A DNA stretch of 64,000 nt from Pagrus major. Taxonomy: Eukaryota > Chordata > Actinopteri > Spariformes > Sparidae. The position numbers and the translations under genes were made by a program. A model generated the notes under the pieces. It made no database searches. It was not told the origin of the DNA and saw nothing but the letters and a program-made list of their open reading frames with translations. This document shows, in pieces, positions 4,025-37,135 of the stretch (position 1 is the stretch's first letter; each line of letters opens with the position of its first letter). The DNA is taken from contig NC_133219.1 of NCBI RefSeq assembly GCF_040436345.1, positions 20,425,458-20,489,457 on the forward strand, given 5' to 3'.

Positions 4025-4731
4025 TGAAAACATCTCAACGAGCACTCCTAAAATAACTGAAAACATAAAAATGAAACATTCTTGACCTAAAATAAGAATT
4101 TTTGACCACCAGAGAGACTCTAAAAACAAACACTCCAACAGATATTTTTTGCAGTGGAGCTAACTTAAAAATCCATTTATCGGTGGATGATAGTATGAGT
4201 AATCCTTTTACATTATTATTTGATTTCGCCATCAGCTCTTACACATCAGAGTTCAGCAATACTTTTCAGCTGTCGGTAATTGATTCAAATTCTGGGTAAC
4301 TTATTCCAACCTTTCTTATTTCGAAGAAAATAATTGAACCGATGGGAAACTAGGAAATGCAACCACTGGGTAGATTTTTCCACCTAGTCTGAGAGCAGAA
4401 TATATTCTAGTTTGATTATTTTTGGCATTAAAGCTCTGTAGATTTTGTCAGCCCGGAGAGTTACACTTCATAGGTTTGATTCATCCTCATGAAATTTTAA
4501 ACACAAGAGAAGTACAGGGAATACTGCCCTTTAAAATGTTGACAATTTGTTCTGATCTCAGCTCTTTGTTCAAGGGTATTTTTTCTTATTTCACTGGTGG
4601 AATTTGTTCTCCTGTGCTGCCAACCCCCATATAACTATGACTCAAGCATTGATGCGGCATAACAAATGTGTCTTTGGTGCGTGGAACATTTCCCACTTTC
4701 ATATCCTGCTCTACCGCAAGACTTCAGCTCC

Positions 4732-4747
4732 TGTGTGTGTGTGTGTT
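4732..4747. repeat. TG run at the cabp7 exon 2 acceptor
   Basis: (TG)8, seven bases before the acceptor AG, standing in for part of the polypyrimidine tract. Confidence 0.85.
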
Positions 4748-4755
4748 CTCTGCAG

Positions 4756-4899
4756 AGATCCGCGAGGCCTTCAAAGTGTTTGACCGCGATGGGAATGGGT
4801 TCATCTCAAAGCAGGAGCTGGGGATGGCCATGCGCTCCCTGGGCTACATGCCAAACGAGGTGGAGCTGGAGGTCATCATCCAGAGACTGGACATGGACG
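4756..4899 (+). CDS. cabp7: cabp7 exon 2 (EF-hand 1 and start of EF-hand 2)
   Basis: The exon starts after a (TG)n-rich tract ending in tctctgcag and ends before gtgagg. It encodes IREAFKVFDRDGNGFISKQE through the first residues of the second Ca2+ loop, DMDG. The first two bases complete a split Glu codon, and the final G is split with the next exon. Confidence 0.93.
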
Positions 4900-7800
4900 G
4901 TGAGGCAACACAGACACACAGGCGTGGATTCTTCTTAAATCACAGATCCCAGAGGCCGTTCGCTCTCTAGATGCCCACAAATCTGGACTGTAGGCAGAAA
5001 AAGCAGCGATAATAAACACCAACTGTTTTTCTTTTTCCGCAGGCGATGGCCAGGTGGACTTTGAGGAGTTTGTCACTCTTCTGGGCCCAAAGCTGACGGC
5101 AGCTGGGTTGCCAGATAAGTTCCACGGCACTGACTTTGACTCCGTTTTTTGGAAGGTGCCCATTATTCAGTCACTCATTCCCTCCCTATTAGAGAGAAGA
5201 TAGACAGCAGAATCGCAGCTGTAGCAAACCTCCAAGTGCAGAAACATTTAAACTGTACGACTTTAAAGGGAAACCAGTTTTAATTGCCACATCCACTGTG
5301 TCGTTAATGGGGGGGATTTTAATCTTAGAGAGGTTTGGATTCCCCTGAGAACTGTTTCTTTTATCAAGACCTTCTCCGCCTCTTCATGTGTGGCGTCAGT
5401 CTTATTACTTAGAACATTAAAGTCAATTTTTATGTAAAAGAGATATTAATTTATTTACAGACACCTCATTAGATAATCAACCGCTCACTCTGACAGTGGG
5501 AAAATGAAATTAATGGGAAGGAGCTTGTGTTAAAGCTGCCTTTGTTGTAGTTAGGTGATAACAGCGCCGGCGTGGCTGTCAGAAAGAGAGACTGCAAATG
5601 GAGTGAAAAAGAGGGGATTTATGGGAATTCTTGGAGCGGCCAGTGTATGAAGAGGAGAATCACAAGCAAAGACACACGCTGGGAGAGTCAAGAAACCCGA
5701 GGGACTGTTGCGAAGGCCGCATAGCTTCACACAACATTATATGGGAAGAGTGGTATCAAGCATGTGATGCTGGATTGATCACACAGAGCCTCCGGTCACA
5801 CTGGTGAGCTCGGCTCTGGCTGAGCTGAAAATGAGTAACATGGATGAGCTTTCCAAACAGCCGCCGAGCCTGGATTGGCATTTTTGCAGGGATATTGATT
5901 AGTCATTCAAGGATTCTTTATATTGTTCAGCTCAAATATATGAACTCAGTTGTCTAGCTGGCAAACTACGCTGCCTAAACATCCAATGGGACATTTAAAG
6001 TGGGGGTGGGCGGCAACATGGAAGTTTAACATGTCATACAAACTGATATTCCCACAATCAAATGTTAACTGCACACAACTTTTCAACATATTTCCCTTCC
6101 GTACACTGTTATTTTTGCTGTTATTGTTCACTTCCTCTCTATGTGTTACGTGTGTGTGCGTACATACTGTGTGCATGTGTAAATGCCTGTCTTTAGATTT
6201 GACTGTATGTGTGTGTTTGCGGTGTTGTATCCGTCAGCCCCTGTCCATGTTAATGTTCAGTTATGTGTGTATATCTCCAGTGTGACATGCAGAAGTTAAC
6301 GGTCGAAGAGCTGAAGAGGCTCCTGTACGACACCTTCTGTGATCACCTTTCCATGAAAGACATCGAGAACATCATCATGACTGAGGAGAACCACATAGAG
6401 AACCCGGAGGAATGCCAGGTGGATATAGACAGTAAGGAAGAACCTCCTATACCTCCTGTACTTCTTATTCTCATCTGTTTTTGTTGTTGACAACTGGCCG
6501 AAACTAGACAATGACATATCCATATTTTATTTCAATGGGGAGAGACTTTATTCTGAGTGAATGACATTGTTTGGGATGAAGATGAATGGCTAAAGATCTG
6601 GATGTGATGAGGAGTAGACTCTGATGAGCTCAACCTGGGCACTGGAAGTGATTTTGTACTGAGATGACAGCTGACAAGACAGCAGAGAGGCGACCACAAT
6701 TAAGGTTTGACAGCCTCAACATGTTTGGCTGATGTAATAGTGGCAAAATCTGGTTGGTTTAACTGAAAGAGTAAGTGTCCGTAGTCAGCTGATTAAGAAG
6801 TGGGAAGAGAGAGAGAGAGAGTGAGAGAGAGTCGTGGATAAACAAGCATTAAGACAGGCTTCCTGATTGAACTTACGCTGTAAAATTAAAGGGCAACTTA
6901 CCCCTATTAGTAGTAGACTATTTTCAGTTTCATTTGCTAATGTTTTGACTATAAGATATATGCCACTACTCGTATAATTTAACTACTACTATCACATATC
7001 AAATATTTCAGTTTTTTCAGTCACAGTCTGTCATATACATGGTTAGGTTAAGCAAAAGATGGTTTGGGGTAAAACACACTCTTTCAAGTGTTAGAAAGGA
7101 TAACTTAAAGAAATTACAAAAACATGATCCTTCAGTTGCAATTCCAAATTGGGTGGTGGTTGGATGGGTCATGAGGACTTCCCTCCAGGACACTGGGGTT
7201 TGCTATGAAACACGTGTCACTGAATTGTTTTTAAGCTATATTGCCTAATTAAGTTAACCAAGTAACATAAGTACATAACTGAATGTTATTTTAACATAAA
7301 GCTGGATGTTTTCCTAAACCTAACCAAGTAGCTTTGGTGCCTAAGCCTAACAAAACTGTGCCTGTTTCACAATGTTAATAATAGTCCAAAAGTAATATAA
7401 TGTCATACTGTGTCAAACGTTTGTCTGCAAGCTTTATTTTGAAAGCCCAATGAGATGTTGCAGGTAGTGTGCAAAGCTGATGCTTGAGGGGTAGGTAGTG
7501 TCATAGTTTGAAGCTAAAGGCCTTCGAGCTGACGTGGTTGATGAGGTCAGAGTGAGACTGTGTTGTGATATCAGATCGTGCCTACCAGAGCGCCCCTCCT
7601 GCTGAATTTTCTGCTGAAATAAATTTGCTTTACTTTGATTTATTATTATATCAGAGGTGGATATCTCAAATAAATAAAACCCTAATTATCTGCATGTCCA
7701 GATACCACTATAGGGGTAGGTGAGGGGTTTGCATTTTGGGGGAAATGATCCTTTAAGATGCAAGCAGCATTTCCTTAAAACTACATCAGAGATGACAGAG

Positions 7801-32003: not shown

Positions 32004-34166
32004 CTGATGACAGGGAGAGAAGGAGGAAGGAGAAATTGGGTTGGTGGATGGAGGCGATGCAGAGATAGAGCAGTCAGGCATCAAGTGCTTCACTTGTATC
32101 CACATGAAAGCGCAGACACACCTGCCCGTCCAAAACATACACACAAACTCAATAGACAGTTGTAGCCAAGAGCTGATTGTTTACACACGCAGGCAGAATA
32201 CTTAAGCAGCCACTTCCTCTGCTGTGTTATTCAGGAGACGGCCCACAAAAGAACCCTCCACAGAGCGGATGTTGGTTTGAATTACCTTTTCTTTAAGGTT
32301 GCCAATGTAGCCCAGATAAAGTCGGACCACTTCAATGACTGTGAGGAGGATCATCCCGGTTATGAGCAGAGCCTGGTAGTACCCGGGTAGATAATAGAAC
32401 TGGAAATAAAGCAGAGCTGGAATGTCAGGATGTCAGGACGGTATGAAAACACTTTTTCCTCTTCAAACTGTGATTTATTTAGTGGACGGACATACCTAAA
32501 GACACAGATAAAAGAAAGCTGTGAGCCTTTCAAATGATTTTAATGGTGTCATGGCTTTGCAGAAGGATGAGATAACCTCAGTGAATTGGGCTCCTATATG
32601 TGATACTTTAACTCTATTCATTTCCTGGTTAGGTGAGAGGTTCCAACAGGGTCTTTTTTCTGCTACCACTAGACGGCACCAAAGTCAAAGGCTTTCAAAT
32701 AGTGGATTTAATAAAATAGATTTAGCACAACTTCTGCTACTTCTGAACATATAAAAAGTAAATACTATTTTTTATACGCTTTAGTATACTTTTACAGCCT
32801 TTAAATGCAGTGGAATGCAGCATGAATTGTTCTCAGCCACCAGATTAAACCTTCTGATTGTGCTATTTTGTCTTAATGACACCAATGATGCAACATGACA
32901 GGCGGTCACTGTCCAATAAATGAGCTCCTTGCGAATGAATCATTGTGAATTCCTTCTTACACTCGGTTCCTGTATAATATGTCTCGGTGAACCCACAGCA
33001 GACCGACCGAGAGAACAGACCTGAAAACTGACTTGTAAACCACCAACTAACCTTTATTTCCAACATGAAAACAGCAGAGAACCACCAGCAGGGGAAATAA
33101 AACATGTTGAAGTACAGCAGCATCTGCAGGGGGAGGTGGGAAACCAGCTCGTTGACCACTGCAAGACAAATGACTTATGTCAAGACTCAAATTCATCACA
33201 TCCAATACTATTATGAACAGCCTCACAATCAAAATTAATCTTTTCTTTGCACAATAACCATCATAGCAGACACTTGTTGTCTGTGATTTTCTTTTTCACC
33301 TTTCACTGAGAGCAATAGTGTCTTTTTCAGGAATGCTCTGATATAATTCACACACTTTAACTTTCACACCTGGATGCTGCCTTGTTCAACCACAGTCTGC
33401 GTTTTAAAACAAGTCCCCATCTACATCAGTTGTTTGGTAGAATGCTGCAACGCTGTTTTATTGCGTAGTTCCAGAAAAGTTTTGTGGACTAATACACTTC
33501 ATCTGACTTTACATCGGCATGGGGGTGAGTAGGCAATGACTGAATTTGCCTTTTGGGGTGAATTTATCCTTTAAGTGCCTTACTCCAGGGCACGTCAGTG
33601 GTGCTAACGGTGGAGGGGCTGCCTGTCCAGTCACAAGCTCAGTTCTCTAATCTTCAGGCTAACTCGGCCGCAAATTTGATAATGACATACATTAGAACAA
33701 AAATTGGTTTTGTGAAAAAATACTTAATTTAACATAATCACATTTAAGGTTCATCACACATTTAATGCTGCATACAACAATTAAAACGAAAATCTTCAAA
33801 AAGGCCAAAACAGACATTAATAACTGCAGGAGCATAATTCAATAAAATATAATTCATTTGATTAGATTTAAAGTAGTTTATCTGGAGTGTTCACATTATT
33901 TTGTCTACCCCTTGTAGTCAGCTGTAAAATATCATAATTTGTTTCAGTTACACATATTGCCCACGTGTAATCATAATACTATGTACTCTACAATGCTGTC
34001 TCCGATTATACAAACAGCGTTTGGAAGCAATAAACCAACCAGCGGCGTCCTCCTGCTCCCTGCTGTAGTCGCTGTCTGCCGTCCTGTTGTTGGTGAACAC
34101 AGAGCCTCCCATATAGGCCAGACCCATCTGCAGGTTCTCGGGAACAGGTGAGTAAAACACAGGCAT
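31686..34166 (-). CDS. tmem17: Transmembrane protein 17 (ciliary transition zone), complete
   Basis: On the minus strand the exons are 34166-34040, 33158-33052, 32399-32286 and 32003-31686. All are GT-AG with matching phases and give 221 residues. ATG at 34166 is the first ATG in its open frame, has A at -3, and begins MPVFYSPVPENLQ. The protein has four hydrophobic segments: about residues 52-72 (LLYFNMFYFPCWWFSAVF), 83-105 (LITGMILLTVIEVV), 120-142 (FWLLSFMFQLPVLLFFL) and 152-172. Family-typical stretches are VVNELVSHLPLQM, RLYLGYIGNLKEKVPELA and PLERAVHSLYLLF. TMEM17 belongs to the MKS/B9 module that gates the base of primary cilia and supports Hedgehog signalling (family knowledge). The tail after LTLLFHLRQFG is longer than I remember for the mammalian protein. 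Whether this is the a or b fish paralogue cannot be decided here. Confidence 0.93.
32286..32399 (-). CDS. tmem17: tmem17 exon 3 (second transmembrane segment)
   Basis: This 38-codon exon lies between ttatttccag and gtaatt. It encodes FYYLPGYYQALLITGMILL and ends RLYLGYIGNLKEK. It is too short to appear as a long open frame but is strongly family-like and in phase on both sides. Confidence 0.93.
32400..33051 (-). other. tmem17: tmem17 intron 2
   Basis: A 0.65 kb AT-rich intron with no gene or repeat recognised. Confidence 0.85.
33052..33158 (-). CDS. tmem17: tmem17 exon 2 (first transmembrane segment)
   Basis: The exon follows catttgtcttgcag and ends aataaag before gttagt. It encodes VNELVSHLPLQM and the first membrane segment with the CWWFSAVFML core. 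Confidence 0.92.
33159..34039 (-). other. tmem17: tmem17 intron 1
   Basis: A 0.9 kb intron with no gene recognised; AT-rich in its middle. Confidence 0.85.
34040..34166 (-). CDS. tmem17: tmem17 exon 1 (start codon, cytosolic N-terminus)
   Basis: Encodes MPVFYSPVPENLQ through DYSREQEDAA. The donor is gttggt after gccgctg. An NRT sequon is present but would face the cytosol in the usual topology. Confidence 0.85.
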
Positions 34167-34744
34167 TGTGGGTAGAGCTGGTGACCATGACCAAGCCAAG
34201 GAGTCAGGAAGTGTAACAGTCCAAAACTGTGTTTGTTTGTGTCCCTCGCGTCTGCTGCTAATCCTTGTTGTGTTTCAGTCGCACAGGTACACGAATGCAT
34301 GAAGGCACAGATACAAATGGACACACACACACTCGAACGCGTGCTGGCAGACACCACTGCTAATCAGATTAGAGTGAAGGGAGGCGGGCAGAGGATTAGG
34401 CTGAGACAGCAGCGTGGCGGTTTGTGAGTAAGTTAGTGGCCATTTGTGACGCTCAGTAAATTTGCTGATCAAATTAGAGAATTTAACAGTTGTTTAAGCT
34501 CTGCAGGGACACAACAGGGACCAGAATGAAAGCAAGAACAATGCATAGTCAGTAGCAACAAAACCCTCCTTCATTTCACACACATACACAGATACATATA
34601 TTTATTGTTCTCCCACAGAAATAAAACATTCAGATTTCTATTTTAAGTGTGTGCACAAATTGTGTACTCAGCTATTTTTTCATTTTATTTACCCCTCCAA
34701 GTATAAATAGTAGCCTAGTAAATGTAGACAACACATTAAATGCA
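34167..34744. other. Short selenoe-tmem17 intergenic interval
   Basis: About 0.58 kb between the selenoe poly(A) signal and the tmem17 start codon. It must hold the tmem17 promoter unless an upstream non-coding exon exists. I saw no TATA box placed convincingly. A weak RFX X-box-like string lies at 34181-34194. Confidence 0.6.
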
Positions 34745-34760
34745 CTGATCCACTCAATAA

Positions 34761-34766
34761 TTTATT
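34761..34766 (-). promoter_or_regulatory. selenoe: selenoe poly(A) signal AATAAA
   Basis: A canonical hexamer on the minus strand (in ccacaataaattattg), the first after the SECIS hairpin. Confidence 0.65.
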
Positions 34767-34840
34767 GTGGTGTTTTACAGCCTTTTTTAATGTATTCAGC
34801 ATATGAACACACTGACACAGATATGACTAACGCACTGCGC

Positions 34841-34936
34841 GCCGCTCCCGACCAGCGACTCCTCAGAATGGTGCCTGGCTTATCGTTTTGGCCTTGGGGC
34901 CCCACTCGTCATTCATGCTTGCCGGGGTGCAGCGGC
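34841..34936 (-). promoter_or_regulatory. selenoe: SECIS element in the selenoe 3' UTR
   Basis: The hairpin begins 22 bases past the stop on the minus strand. Helix I pairs GCCGCT (34936-34931) with AGCGGC (34846-34841), and CCGGC (34925-34921) with GCTGG (34856-34852). The core has ATGA (34912-34909) opposite TGAG (34865-34862). Helix II pairs GAGTGGGGCC (34907-34898) with GGCACCATTC (34875-34866), with one mismatch. The 22-base apical region starts CCAAGGCC and can form a mini-helix (GGC/GCC) leaving AA unpaired, as in form-2 SECIS elements. It would bind SBP2 and direct Sec insertion at the upstream TGA. The pairing was folded by eye. Confidence 0.82.
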
Positions 34937-34958
34937 AGAGCTTGGCCACAAGGTGTCA

Positions 34959-35102
34959 TCACAGCTCGTCCCTTGGGGCGCGCAGGGGGAAGTGCTGGAA
35001 CTCCTCTGGCACCTCTTCCCCTTTCTTGGACCTCTTGTAGAAACCGTGCGAGTCTAACAGGCTGCTGATCTCGTCTGCCTTCATCTTCTTCACGGGAACA
35101 GT
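34959..35102 (-). CDS. selenoe: selenoe exon 4 (C-terminus with RDEL)
   Basis: The acceptor is acgtcag. It encodes TVPVKKMKADEISSLLDSHG onward, then EEVPEEFQHFPLRAPRDEL and a TGA stop at 34961-34959. This TGA is the true terminator, since it follows the RDEL signal and precedes the SECIS. Confidence 0.93.
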   Translation of the reverse strand, partial: TVPVKKMKADEISSLLDSHGFYKRSKKGEEVPEEFQHFPLRAPRDEL

Positions 35103-37135
35103 CTGACGTGTTGGGAAGGAGCACACACACACACACACACACACGCATTTGGACACAGGGTTAAAGGCTTAAAAGCAGTGATGCAGTGTAAAATGTGCAG
35201 AGGAGTATGTGTTTGCAGACTTACAGTGTTTTCTGAGTCCCATTTGGACTGATGCATTCATTTGGTCTCCTAAAATTGGATTTTTATTAAACTTCTCTAG
35301 TCTCTGCTGATACGGAGCTTCCTCCTCCACATTTGTTTTCATTCATTTGCTCAATAATTCGTTCAATAATACTCACAGTCTCAAAGGGCGCCCACATTGT
35401 GAAACACTAAACGAAAACAATATTAGACCCTGAATGTGACTCCTACATGAGCTTTATGAGGGAAAATCCAAAGGTGAAAAAACCTCATGAAAGCAGTGAA
35501 GTCTGTGAGAAGTTTACAGCAGTGGATGTTTTGTGCATTTTTCGAGGAGGCTAACACTGAAGAAATTTATTGGTTTCAGTGGAGAGTTTTATTGTCCCAT
35601 TCTGGCCTAAATGAAGGTTCAGGGGCTTTTCCACACTGACAAAAATAAAATAGTGTGGGAAACGCTGAACAGTTGTAATTCCAGGGCATACAACTGTTCA
35701 AAATCATATCAGCGTTCATACCAACTCTTCTGTTTCACGACAAAAAATATTACTCAGCTGTCAGAAAACCCCTAATTTAAATGCTCTCTGACTCTCTATC
35801 TCTCTTGCCATCTGTTATTTTTTTGTAACTCTGCCTCGCTCTTTCAAACACAATCGCTCTCGACTTGGTATCTGACAGAGGATCTGATATCGGATGCAGC
35901 AGTCTTAAAACCTCCCTACATGAATGCGTCTTGACATTCACCCCGGATAAGCTCCATCACAAGGCGGAGGAGTGAAAGATCCCTGAGCTCACATCTCACC
36001 TTTACAACCTCGTCCTTTTCGTTATAGAATATCAGGCGCGGATTCTTCTCCTCCGATGAATCATATTCCAAGTTGTGGCTACACAGGGAAGCAACGGATC
36101 AAGGGAAACAACAGGTAGGCAGAAATAAAGAGCATTACATCAGTTTTGATATTTTTAGACTCGCTCAACATGATTCTGACTTGGAAGAGGAAGAGTTTTG
36201 GAAAGCTCACAGGGCTGGCACTGGCCTTGGCAACTTGTTTTGTTTATGAAAGAGGTCATGAGAAAATCTGGGGTGTTTTTTGGGGGGGGAATTCATTTCT
36301 TTTCCAGCACAAGGATACTATAAAGCCCAGCGCTCCATGAGAAAATGTTGGAGCTCGGGCATTTTCTTTATGCCTCATCCGACCAAACTGGGAGCCTGCA
36401 GGGATGACGACAGACAGTTGTTAAAACAGCATGACAAATAGCGTTGTGCACGCTTCGTTCTTACGTCTGATTAAAGGTGCCAGAAATAGGTTCCGCAGAA
36501 TACATACTGACATGACAACACTTGGCTTATCATCGTAATCATTTTCCAATTTGCTTCCTGTGTGCTGTCACCGCGTCCCCTGTCGTCTCTTCATGTGTGT
36601 ATCTCATTTCAGACTCTGCACCAATCCCTCACCAAACTGTCACATGTGACATGTGATTGGTTATTTTCACATGTGAACTAAAATGTCATCATGTGAAAAT
36701 ATAATTACGTCACAAGTGATTGGCTTTTTTCATATATGCCAAAAAAACAAGTCAATGTTAATACATTTAATAACATGAAATGAATGAATTTCGACATTTT
36801 CTGACAGTTTCACACGCAATTTCAGATGAGAACTACAGATAAAGTAATTTCCCGTGGGAACTGGACATTTTCTCACGTAACTGGCTTTTTTCATATATGA
36901 ATTTCCAAATTAAAAAAAATTACATTACATGCGCAATCCCTTTTTCCAAACATTTTATGGTCATGACAAGATATGAAGATAACATGTGAAAGTCATCCAT
37001 GTTGTACATATTTCTGTCTGTACTCACCAGCAGTTTACCTCTGGCTATAACAAGCTCTTCTTCAGCCGCTGTGTCGTTGGTAGAGTCTGATGCTCTAACA
37101 GAAAGGGCAAGAGTGAGCACCAAGAAGGCCCACAT
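34959..37135 (-). CDS. selenoe: Fish 15-kDa selenoprotein (Fep15, selenoprotein E), complete, with in-frame TGA = Sec
   Basis: On the minus strand the exons are 37135-37028, 36395-36319, 36078-36000 and 35102-34959. All are GT-AG with matching phases and give 135 residues including Sec43. ATG at 37135 has A at -3 and opens a signal peptide (MWAFLVLTLALSVRA, probable cleavage near residue 15). Exon 2 reads APSLVG-Sec-GIKKMPEL, with TGA at 36377-36375. Exons 3-4 supply the thioredoxin-like half (YHNLEYDSSEEKNPRLIFYN, then KKMKADEISSLLDSHGFYK) typical of the Sep15/SelM family. The protein ends in RDEL, an ER-retention signal. A SECIS-like hairpin follows the stop. Fep15 is known as an ER-resident, fish-restricted Sep15-family member with Sec but no partner cysteine; here the whole conceptual protein contains no Cys. 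Its exact reaction is not established. SELENOM was considered, but its CGGU motif is absent. Confidence 0.93.
35103..35999 (-). other. selenoe: selenoe intron 3
   Basis: A 0.9 kb intron. A CA/TG microsatellite (35122-35144) sits about 20 bases from the exon 4 acceptor. Confidence 0.85.
35122..35144. repeat. CA microsatellite
   Basis: (CA)11-12 in selenoe intron 3, near the exon 4 acceptor. Confidence 0.95.
36000..36078 (-). CDS. selenoe: selenoe exon 3
   Basis: The exon begins after tgtgtag by completing a split Tyr codon. It encodes HNLEYDSSEEKNPRLIFYN and ends DEVVK before gtgaga. Confidence 0.92.
36319..36395 (-). CDS. selenoe: selenoe exon 2 carrying the TGA selenocysteine codon
   Basis: A 77-base exon between catccctgcag and gtatcc. 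Read in the frame fixed by exon 1 (phase 0) and exon 3 (phase 2), it has a single stop-like codon, TGA at 36377-36375, flanked by Gly on both sides. It encodes IKKMPELQHFLMERWAL after the Sec. Frame-continuous translation on both sides shows the TGA is read through rather than terminal. Confidence 0.9.
36396..37027 (-). other. selenoe: selenoe intron 1 with diverged CACATGTGA-type repeats
   Basis: A 0.63 kb intron. From about 36638 to 36905 it carries several imperfect copies of CACATGTGA and of a GGCTTTTTTCATATATG string (36722 and 36882), so part of it is a degenerate local repeat. No further exon is needed, because exons 1 and 2 join in frame. Confidence 0.7.
37028..37135 (-). CDS. selenoe: selenoe exon 1 (signal peptide)
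   Basis: Thirty-six codons from ATG to ARGKLL, ending exactly at a codon boundary before the strong donor gtgagt. It has a hydrophobic signal sequence followed by an acidic stretch (DTAAEEE). Confidence 0.88.

Follow-up and report, generated by a model that had tools for sequence, protein, structure and literature searches.

A probable fish selenoprotein E gene (selenoe, Fep15) with an in-frame TGA, a candidate SECIS hairpin and a cysteine-free product

Introduction

Fep15, the fish 15 kDa selenoprotein, was described by Novoselov et al. 2006 (as cited in PMC3316567 and PMC2375036), and is reported from bony fishes and the elephant shark, with a cysteine (Cys) form in frog (PMC3316567). Under the name SELENOE it is counted with SELENOF within one homologous family (PMC12822975). 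Expression of the gene has been followed in Atlantic bluefin tuna larvae, in which selenoe mRNA was measured with two RT-PCR primers and was higher in larvae on selenium-enriched rotifers (PMC9854485). Databases frequently misannotate the gene: fewer than 1% of the SELENOE, SELENOL and SELENOJ genes in Ensembl are well annotated, and in RefSeq the fish-specific selenoprotein families fare no worse than the mammalian ones (PMC12822975).

Here we describe a locus in a 64 kb window of the Pagrus major genome (the window being the whole stretch of DNA analysed, 64,000 nucleotides, whose numbering is used throughout) which, judged by sequence comparison, is almost certainly an intact selenoe gene of a ray-finned fish, with a UGA codon predicted to be decoded as selenocysteine (Sec) through a SECIS element. 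As an orthologue it is ordinary, its family being already known, and its value is practical: it illustrates cleanly the kind of Sec gene that standard pipelines cut short or miss. The coding exons, the Sec TGA, the SECIS candidate and a polyadenylation motif have all been given coordinates.

Results and Discussion

Structure of the gene

The gene lies on the minus strand and has four coding exons, at 37135-37028, 36395-36319, 36078-36000 and 35102-34959, with lengths of 108, 77, 79 and 144 nt (the last including the stop codon), which sum to 408 nt, or 135 codons ahead of the stop. All three introns (632, 240 and 897 nt) begin with GT and end with AG, the exons start in phases 0, 0, 2 and 0, and the joins, recomputed by script, match in phase. 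The spliced frame contains a single internal TGA, at 36377-36375, beyond which 92 codons are all open, and its terminal TGA stands right after a C-terminal RDEL. An initial annotation of this DNA had placed the 77-base exon and its TGA at precisely these positions, and had proposed that the exons join in phase with TGA read as Sec and leave the frame open to RDEL; the recomputed joins agree on both counts.

The first exon opens with the start ATG, encodes a hydrophobic N-terminus in which a signal peptide was judged by eye, and ends in IARGKLL before the donor GTGAGT; its 36 residues are also found at the head of a metagenomic protein (P0075). The model assumes one 5' exon; a non-coding first exon may lie ahead of it, and four is therefore a minimum for the mRNA. 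Exon 2, bounded by the acceptor CTGCAG and the donor GTATCC, carries the in-frame TGA as residue 43 in the context SLVG-U-GIKK, and is followed in the spliced frame by exon 3 (HNLEYDSSEEKNPRLIFYNEKDEVVK) and by exon 4 with RDEL and the terminal TGA. RDEL ends all 34 rows of a family alignment (A1) and 64 of the 93 protein matches described below. A second in-frame TGA abuts the terminal stop (TGA TGA, 34961-34956, minus strand), with 46 nt to the ATGA of the SECIS candidate. Further downstream, a possible polyadenylation signal, recognized by motif only, is the AATAAA at 34761-34766 on the minus strand; more AATAAA motifs occur at 34689 and 34606, and ATTAAA at 34791.

Family identity

When a protein collection was searched with the spliced product, 93 of 114 candidates passed E <= 1e-3, with a best value of 7.5e-58; they comprise fish, frog and shark rows together with metagenomic rows. 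Five are called selenoprotein e or E by their source (P0031, P0042, P0053, P0054 and P0066), and the comparison with SELENOE entries that the initial annotation had suggested as a check thus comes out in its favour. The product matches Pfam Sep15_SelM (2.8e-14, 53.3 bits, cut-off 26), two further Pfam families at 0.04 and 0.075 being under their cut-offs, and the top match in a sequence search of the PDB is mouse SelM (2a2p, 7.6e-12), two others (0.0075 and 0.92) being chance-like. The window protein keeps all 26 columns that are invariant across the 34 rows of A1, and together with the 93 matches this lifts the spliced frame above a chance join. A scan of viral contigs for relatives gave two pattern matches, neither of them a relative.

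Rows for SELENOM were obtained in a second protein search with a piece of SelM as query, which matched 231 proteins, of which 120 were listed. A tree of 24 rows separates the window protein and 14 SELENOE-type rows from nine SELENOM rows with support of 100/100; the rows of both the tree and A1 were chosen by us, the nine SELENOM rows being drawn from the 120 listed and the tree comprising SELENOE-type and SELENOM rows. Most forks inside the SELENOE side are weak, and the nearest row to the window protein is that of Siganus, at 94% over 88 columns. Since Aldrovandia and Pyxicephalus each have one row on the SELENOE side and one on the SELENOM side, SELENOE and SELENOM are separate genes.

In its comparison with SELENOE/Fep15 the locus shows no difference in any of the features considered: it falls in the sequence group that includes the rows named selenoprotein e or E, comes from a fish host, encodes a thioredoxin-like Sep15/SelM domain and an RDEL end, and places its Sec codon where the frog relatives have Cys. 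The Fep15/selenoe identity proposed in the initial annotation is thus upheld by the family match, the source-named rows and the tree, as well as by the Cys column, the SECIS-like hairpin and the tuna primers considered below.

The selenocysteine codon in relatives

The column occupied by TGA is Cys in all 22 of the selected full-length relatives, namely 21 frog rows and one fish, Metynnis (P0001). These rows, which run across the TGA column, were picked by eye from the 93 and include two isoforms from a single frog (P0035 and P0047). The letter U appears in none of the 213 protein rows fetched in the SELENOE and SELENOM searches, and a control with SELENOM is instructive in this respect: among the 120 rows listed, the Sec letter has been dropped in 22 (giving CGGQ) and is written as C in one (P0101). 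The rule of the collection is thus to drop the Sec letter, a form seen in none of the 93 SELENOE matches, yet given the one exception in the control a C in these rows may occasionally represent Sec. A frog Cys homologue has, however, been reported independently of these rows (PMC3316567).

The row of Metynnis hypsauchen (P0001) has Cys at the Sec position, and that of its tree neighbour Serrasalmus (P0026) starts just after the Sec codon. On the strength of this one row, a change from Sec to Cys may have taken place within the fishes. The account in PMC3316567, in the portion available, mentions the Cys form for frog only, and a literature search for Metynnis with selenoprotein found nothing.

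A candidate SECIS element

A combined motif and fold scan identified a candidate SECIS hairpin within the 3' UTR, at 34836-34937 on the minus strand, with ATGA at 34912-34909, AA at 34895-34894 and GA at 34864-34863. The ATGA faces the GA across the helix and the AA is unpaired in the apical region; the distance from ATGA to AA is 13 nt, with a CC just before the AA, at 11 nt. The initial annotation made no mention of a SECIS element, though its range (from 34841) takes in most of the hairpin. The rules given for eukaryotic SECIS elements call for facing ATGA and GA, two unpaired A (or C) residues in the apical loop and a distance of no less than 51-111 nt from the Sec UGA (PMC3316567), and by the motif and fold scan the predicted element conforms to these rules, with its ATGA 325 nt downstream of the Sec TGA in the mRNA and 46 nt past the stop codon. 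Because 46 nt falls inside the minimum distance of 51-111 nt, the terminal TGA should still stop translation.

The scan, which looked for ATGA, two unpaired bases (AA or CC) 10-13 nt further on and a GA opposite the ATGA, covered both strands of the 64 kb window and gave 12 core matches. The candidate at 34912 has the best core energy of the 12 (-14.7 kcal/mol, the runner-up being a plus-strand match at 35447 with -13.1), and with its flanks is by far the best (-46.1, the next being -26.6). When the 193-nt 3' UTR was shuffled 2000 times, a core match arose in 25 shuffles and the energy of the candidate was reached in two; when the window's minus strand was shuffled 30 times, it was never reached. 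The stability of the 148-nt fold at this place is less distinctive, with a z-score of only -1.67 and 12 of 200 shuffles equally stable. Rfam gave no SECIS match in the whole window at gathering scores, and none over 34700-35000 at E <= 10.

The tuna selenoe primers (PMC9854485) provide a further point of comparison, and the conservation of the SECIS was judged through them only. At the locus 19 of the 20 bases of each primer match, against 14 and 15 at the next best sites in the window, and the predicted product at the locus is 178 bases, against 177 in tuna. They cover exon 4 and the 3' UTR, with exons 1-3 outside their reach, and the site of the reverse primer (34878-34859) includes the GA of the SECIS. 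From these positions it follows that the tuna selenoe mRNA spans exon 4 through the 3' arm of the hairpin.

Public gene models

Many public rows for this family are misannotated in recognizable ways. Sixteen of the 93 (13 from bony fish, two from sharks and one without a named source) start at the Met five codons past the TGA, and by pattern eight join exon 1 to exon 4, three start at the next Met and two read exon 2 in another frame. A downstream start, a skipped Sec exon and a different frame are among the error types defined in PMC12822975. The 42 rows that belong neither to these classes nor to the 22 full-length relatives include many that look like single-exon fragments read into introns and others that look like models in which unrelated sequence replaces exon 2; P0059 resembles another join of exons 1 and 4, and P0042 and P0043 resemble further starts at the next Met.

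These rows bear on the suggestion, made in the initial annotation, that a standard caller would stop early or skip the 77-base exon. Public models are indeed misannotated, but skipping exon 2 alone is not a viable model, because the frame breaks and stops appear. Similarly, the description of the gene as hidden holds for many annotations, although such misannotation has already been published (PMC12822975).

Alternative readings of the locus

Under the standard code the frame ends at 36377-36375, and the locus could on that account be a pseudogene or a gene for a 42-residue peptide only. A real stop, however, is at odds with the 92 open codons beyond it, with the conservation of the family in the product (no invariant column of A1 being lost), with the presence of the downstream frame in the 16 public rows of bony fish, shark and unnamed origin, and with both the Cys of the selected full-length relatives and the SECIS candidate, and we consider it exceedingly improbable. 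No more credit is due to the view that the true product is one of the short forms that the public models themselves suggest, either the 88 residues that start at the Met past the TGA (as in 16 of 93 rows) or the 83 residues of the exon 1-exon 4 join (as in eight, by pattern). The former would have neither signal peptide nor Sec, and the latter would lose exons 2 and 3 and hence Sec and much of the domain, whereas 21 frog rows and one fish row read exon 2 in frame with Cys; moreover, errors of just this kind are known for selenoprotein genes (PMC12822975).

Assignment to SELENOM or SELENOF in place of SELENOE might be argued from the Pfam domain, which is named for both, and from SelM leading the solved structures in both the sequence and the fold comparison (the latter among the best 50 of 741 matches). 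The chance that this is correct seems to us negligible. The nine SELENOM rows stand apart with full support in a tree of SELENOE-type and SELENOM rows, in which Aldrovandia and Pyxicephalus have both kinds; five matches are named selenoprotein e or E by their source; and the window protein has no Cys and so contains neither CGU nor CGGU. The reading as an intact selenoe gene is therefore the one that we carry forward.

Fold and the absence of cysteine

The structural comparison was made with a model of P0001, a row that shares 78% identity with the window protein across 90% of the latter; its mean pLDDT is 75.5, with blocks of 88-96 over residues 31-110, and its core has the order beta-alpha-beta-beta-beta-alpha. 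Against PDB folds SelM ranks first (E 1.6e-7, TM 0.60/0.64) and is the sole match below 0.001 among the best 50 of 741; in the same 50, ranks 2-4 are chains of the mitochondrial ribosome and complex I, and Sep15 of Drosophila (2a4h) is fifth at 2.4e-3.

With SELENOM the window protein thus shares the Pfam domain, the fold and the placing of the redox residue, which lies at the same aligned position before the first helix. It differs in occupying a separate branch of the tree and in the motif itself, the solved SelM row reading CGGC where the window protein has SLVGU and no Cys. In nature Sec is the fourth residue of the SelM motif (CGGU), and this CxxU redox motif is absent from the window protein. 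With SELENOF it shares the Pfam domain and, through 2a4h, the fold match noted above, and it differs in having no Cys where SELENOF has CGU (PMC5981252), the CxU motif likewise being absent. The Cys found three places before the redox residue in SELENOM, and two places before it in SELENOF (PMC5981252), accordingly has no counterpart here.

In fact, the 135-residue window protein contains no Cys at all. Beginning at the APS motif, a single Cys is present in each of the 22 Cys-type rows; their remaining Cys, at residues 8-31, probably sit in the signal peptide. Among the rows that start after the TGA, 14 of 16 are also free of Cys, the exceptions being P0033 and P0038, which have a Cys in DEIC. 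This DEIC Cys, far downstream of the Sec place, occurs in P0033, P0038, P0042, P0046 and P0066, all of which we take to be from catfish.

We propose that the mRNA would be spliced from at least four exons, and that the UGA at 36377-36375 would be decoded as Sec with the aid of the SECIS hairpin in the 3' UTR. Translation would yield a precursor of 135 residues that probably reaches the endoplasmic reticulum (ER) through its putative signal peptide and would be retained there by RDEL; the mature domain is predicted to adopt a thioredoxin-like fold of the Sep15/SelM type, in which Sec occupies the active-site position. Since the protein has no Cys, the selenol would be without a resolving partner in the chain, and given the upstream Cys of SELENOM and SELENOF this suggests that the product is most likely a single-selenol redox protein of the ER, whose oxidized selenium would be reduced by an outside thiol. 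More generally, SELENOE as a family may be a lone-chalcogen redox protein, whose single Sec or Cys, unaccompanied by a resolving Cys in the mature chain, joins an external thiol (that of glutathione or of a PDI-like protein) in a mixed selenosulfide, or may serve as a binding adaptor; on the pattern of residues in the available sequences we regard this proposal as evenly balanced, the further Cys (DEIC) of the catfish rows counting against it. Because Cys is lacking altogether, the identity of the SELENOE redox partner becomes a question that experiments can address.

Neighbouring sequence

The next gene on the same strand is TMEM17-like, at 34166-31689 (minus strand), with pieces of Pfam Transmemb_17 in the open frames 33174-32866 (just under cut-off) and 32180-31689. 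Its start ATG, at 34166, begins the sequence MPVFY, which we take to be the start of TMEM17. An annotated protein of Albula (P0074) carries the SELENOE C-terminus at its head and continues into an MPVFY start like this one, which suggests that the SELENOE-TMEM17-like neighbourhood is conserved.

Elsewhere in the window, the minus strand at 62969-49953 holds EGF-rich open frames at 62969-62427 and, more weakly, at 62085-61696 and 61603-61325, together with an open frame of 414 aa at 51194-49953 that has no Pfam match; the frames of this region presumably resemble a SCARF-type scavenger receptor. On the plus strand, an open frame at 4653-4967 encodes a calmodulin-like EF-hand (Pfam EF-hand_1, 1.3e-10).
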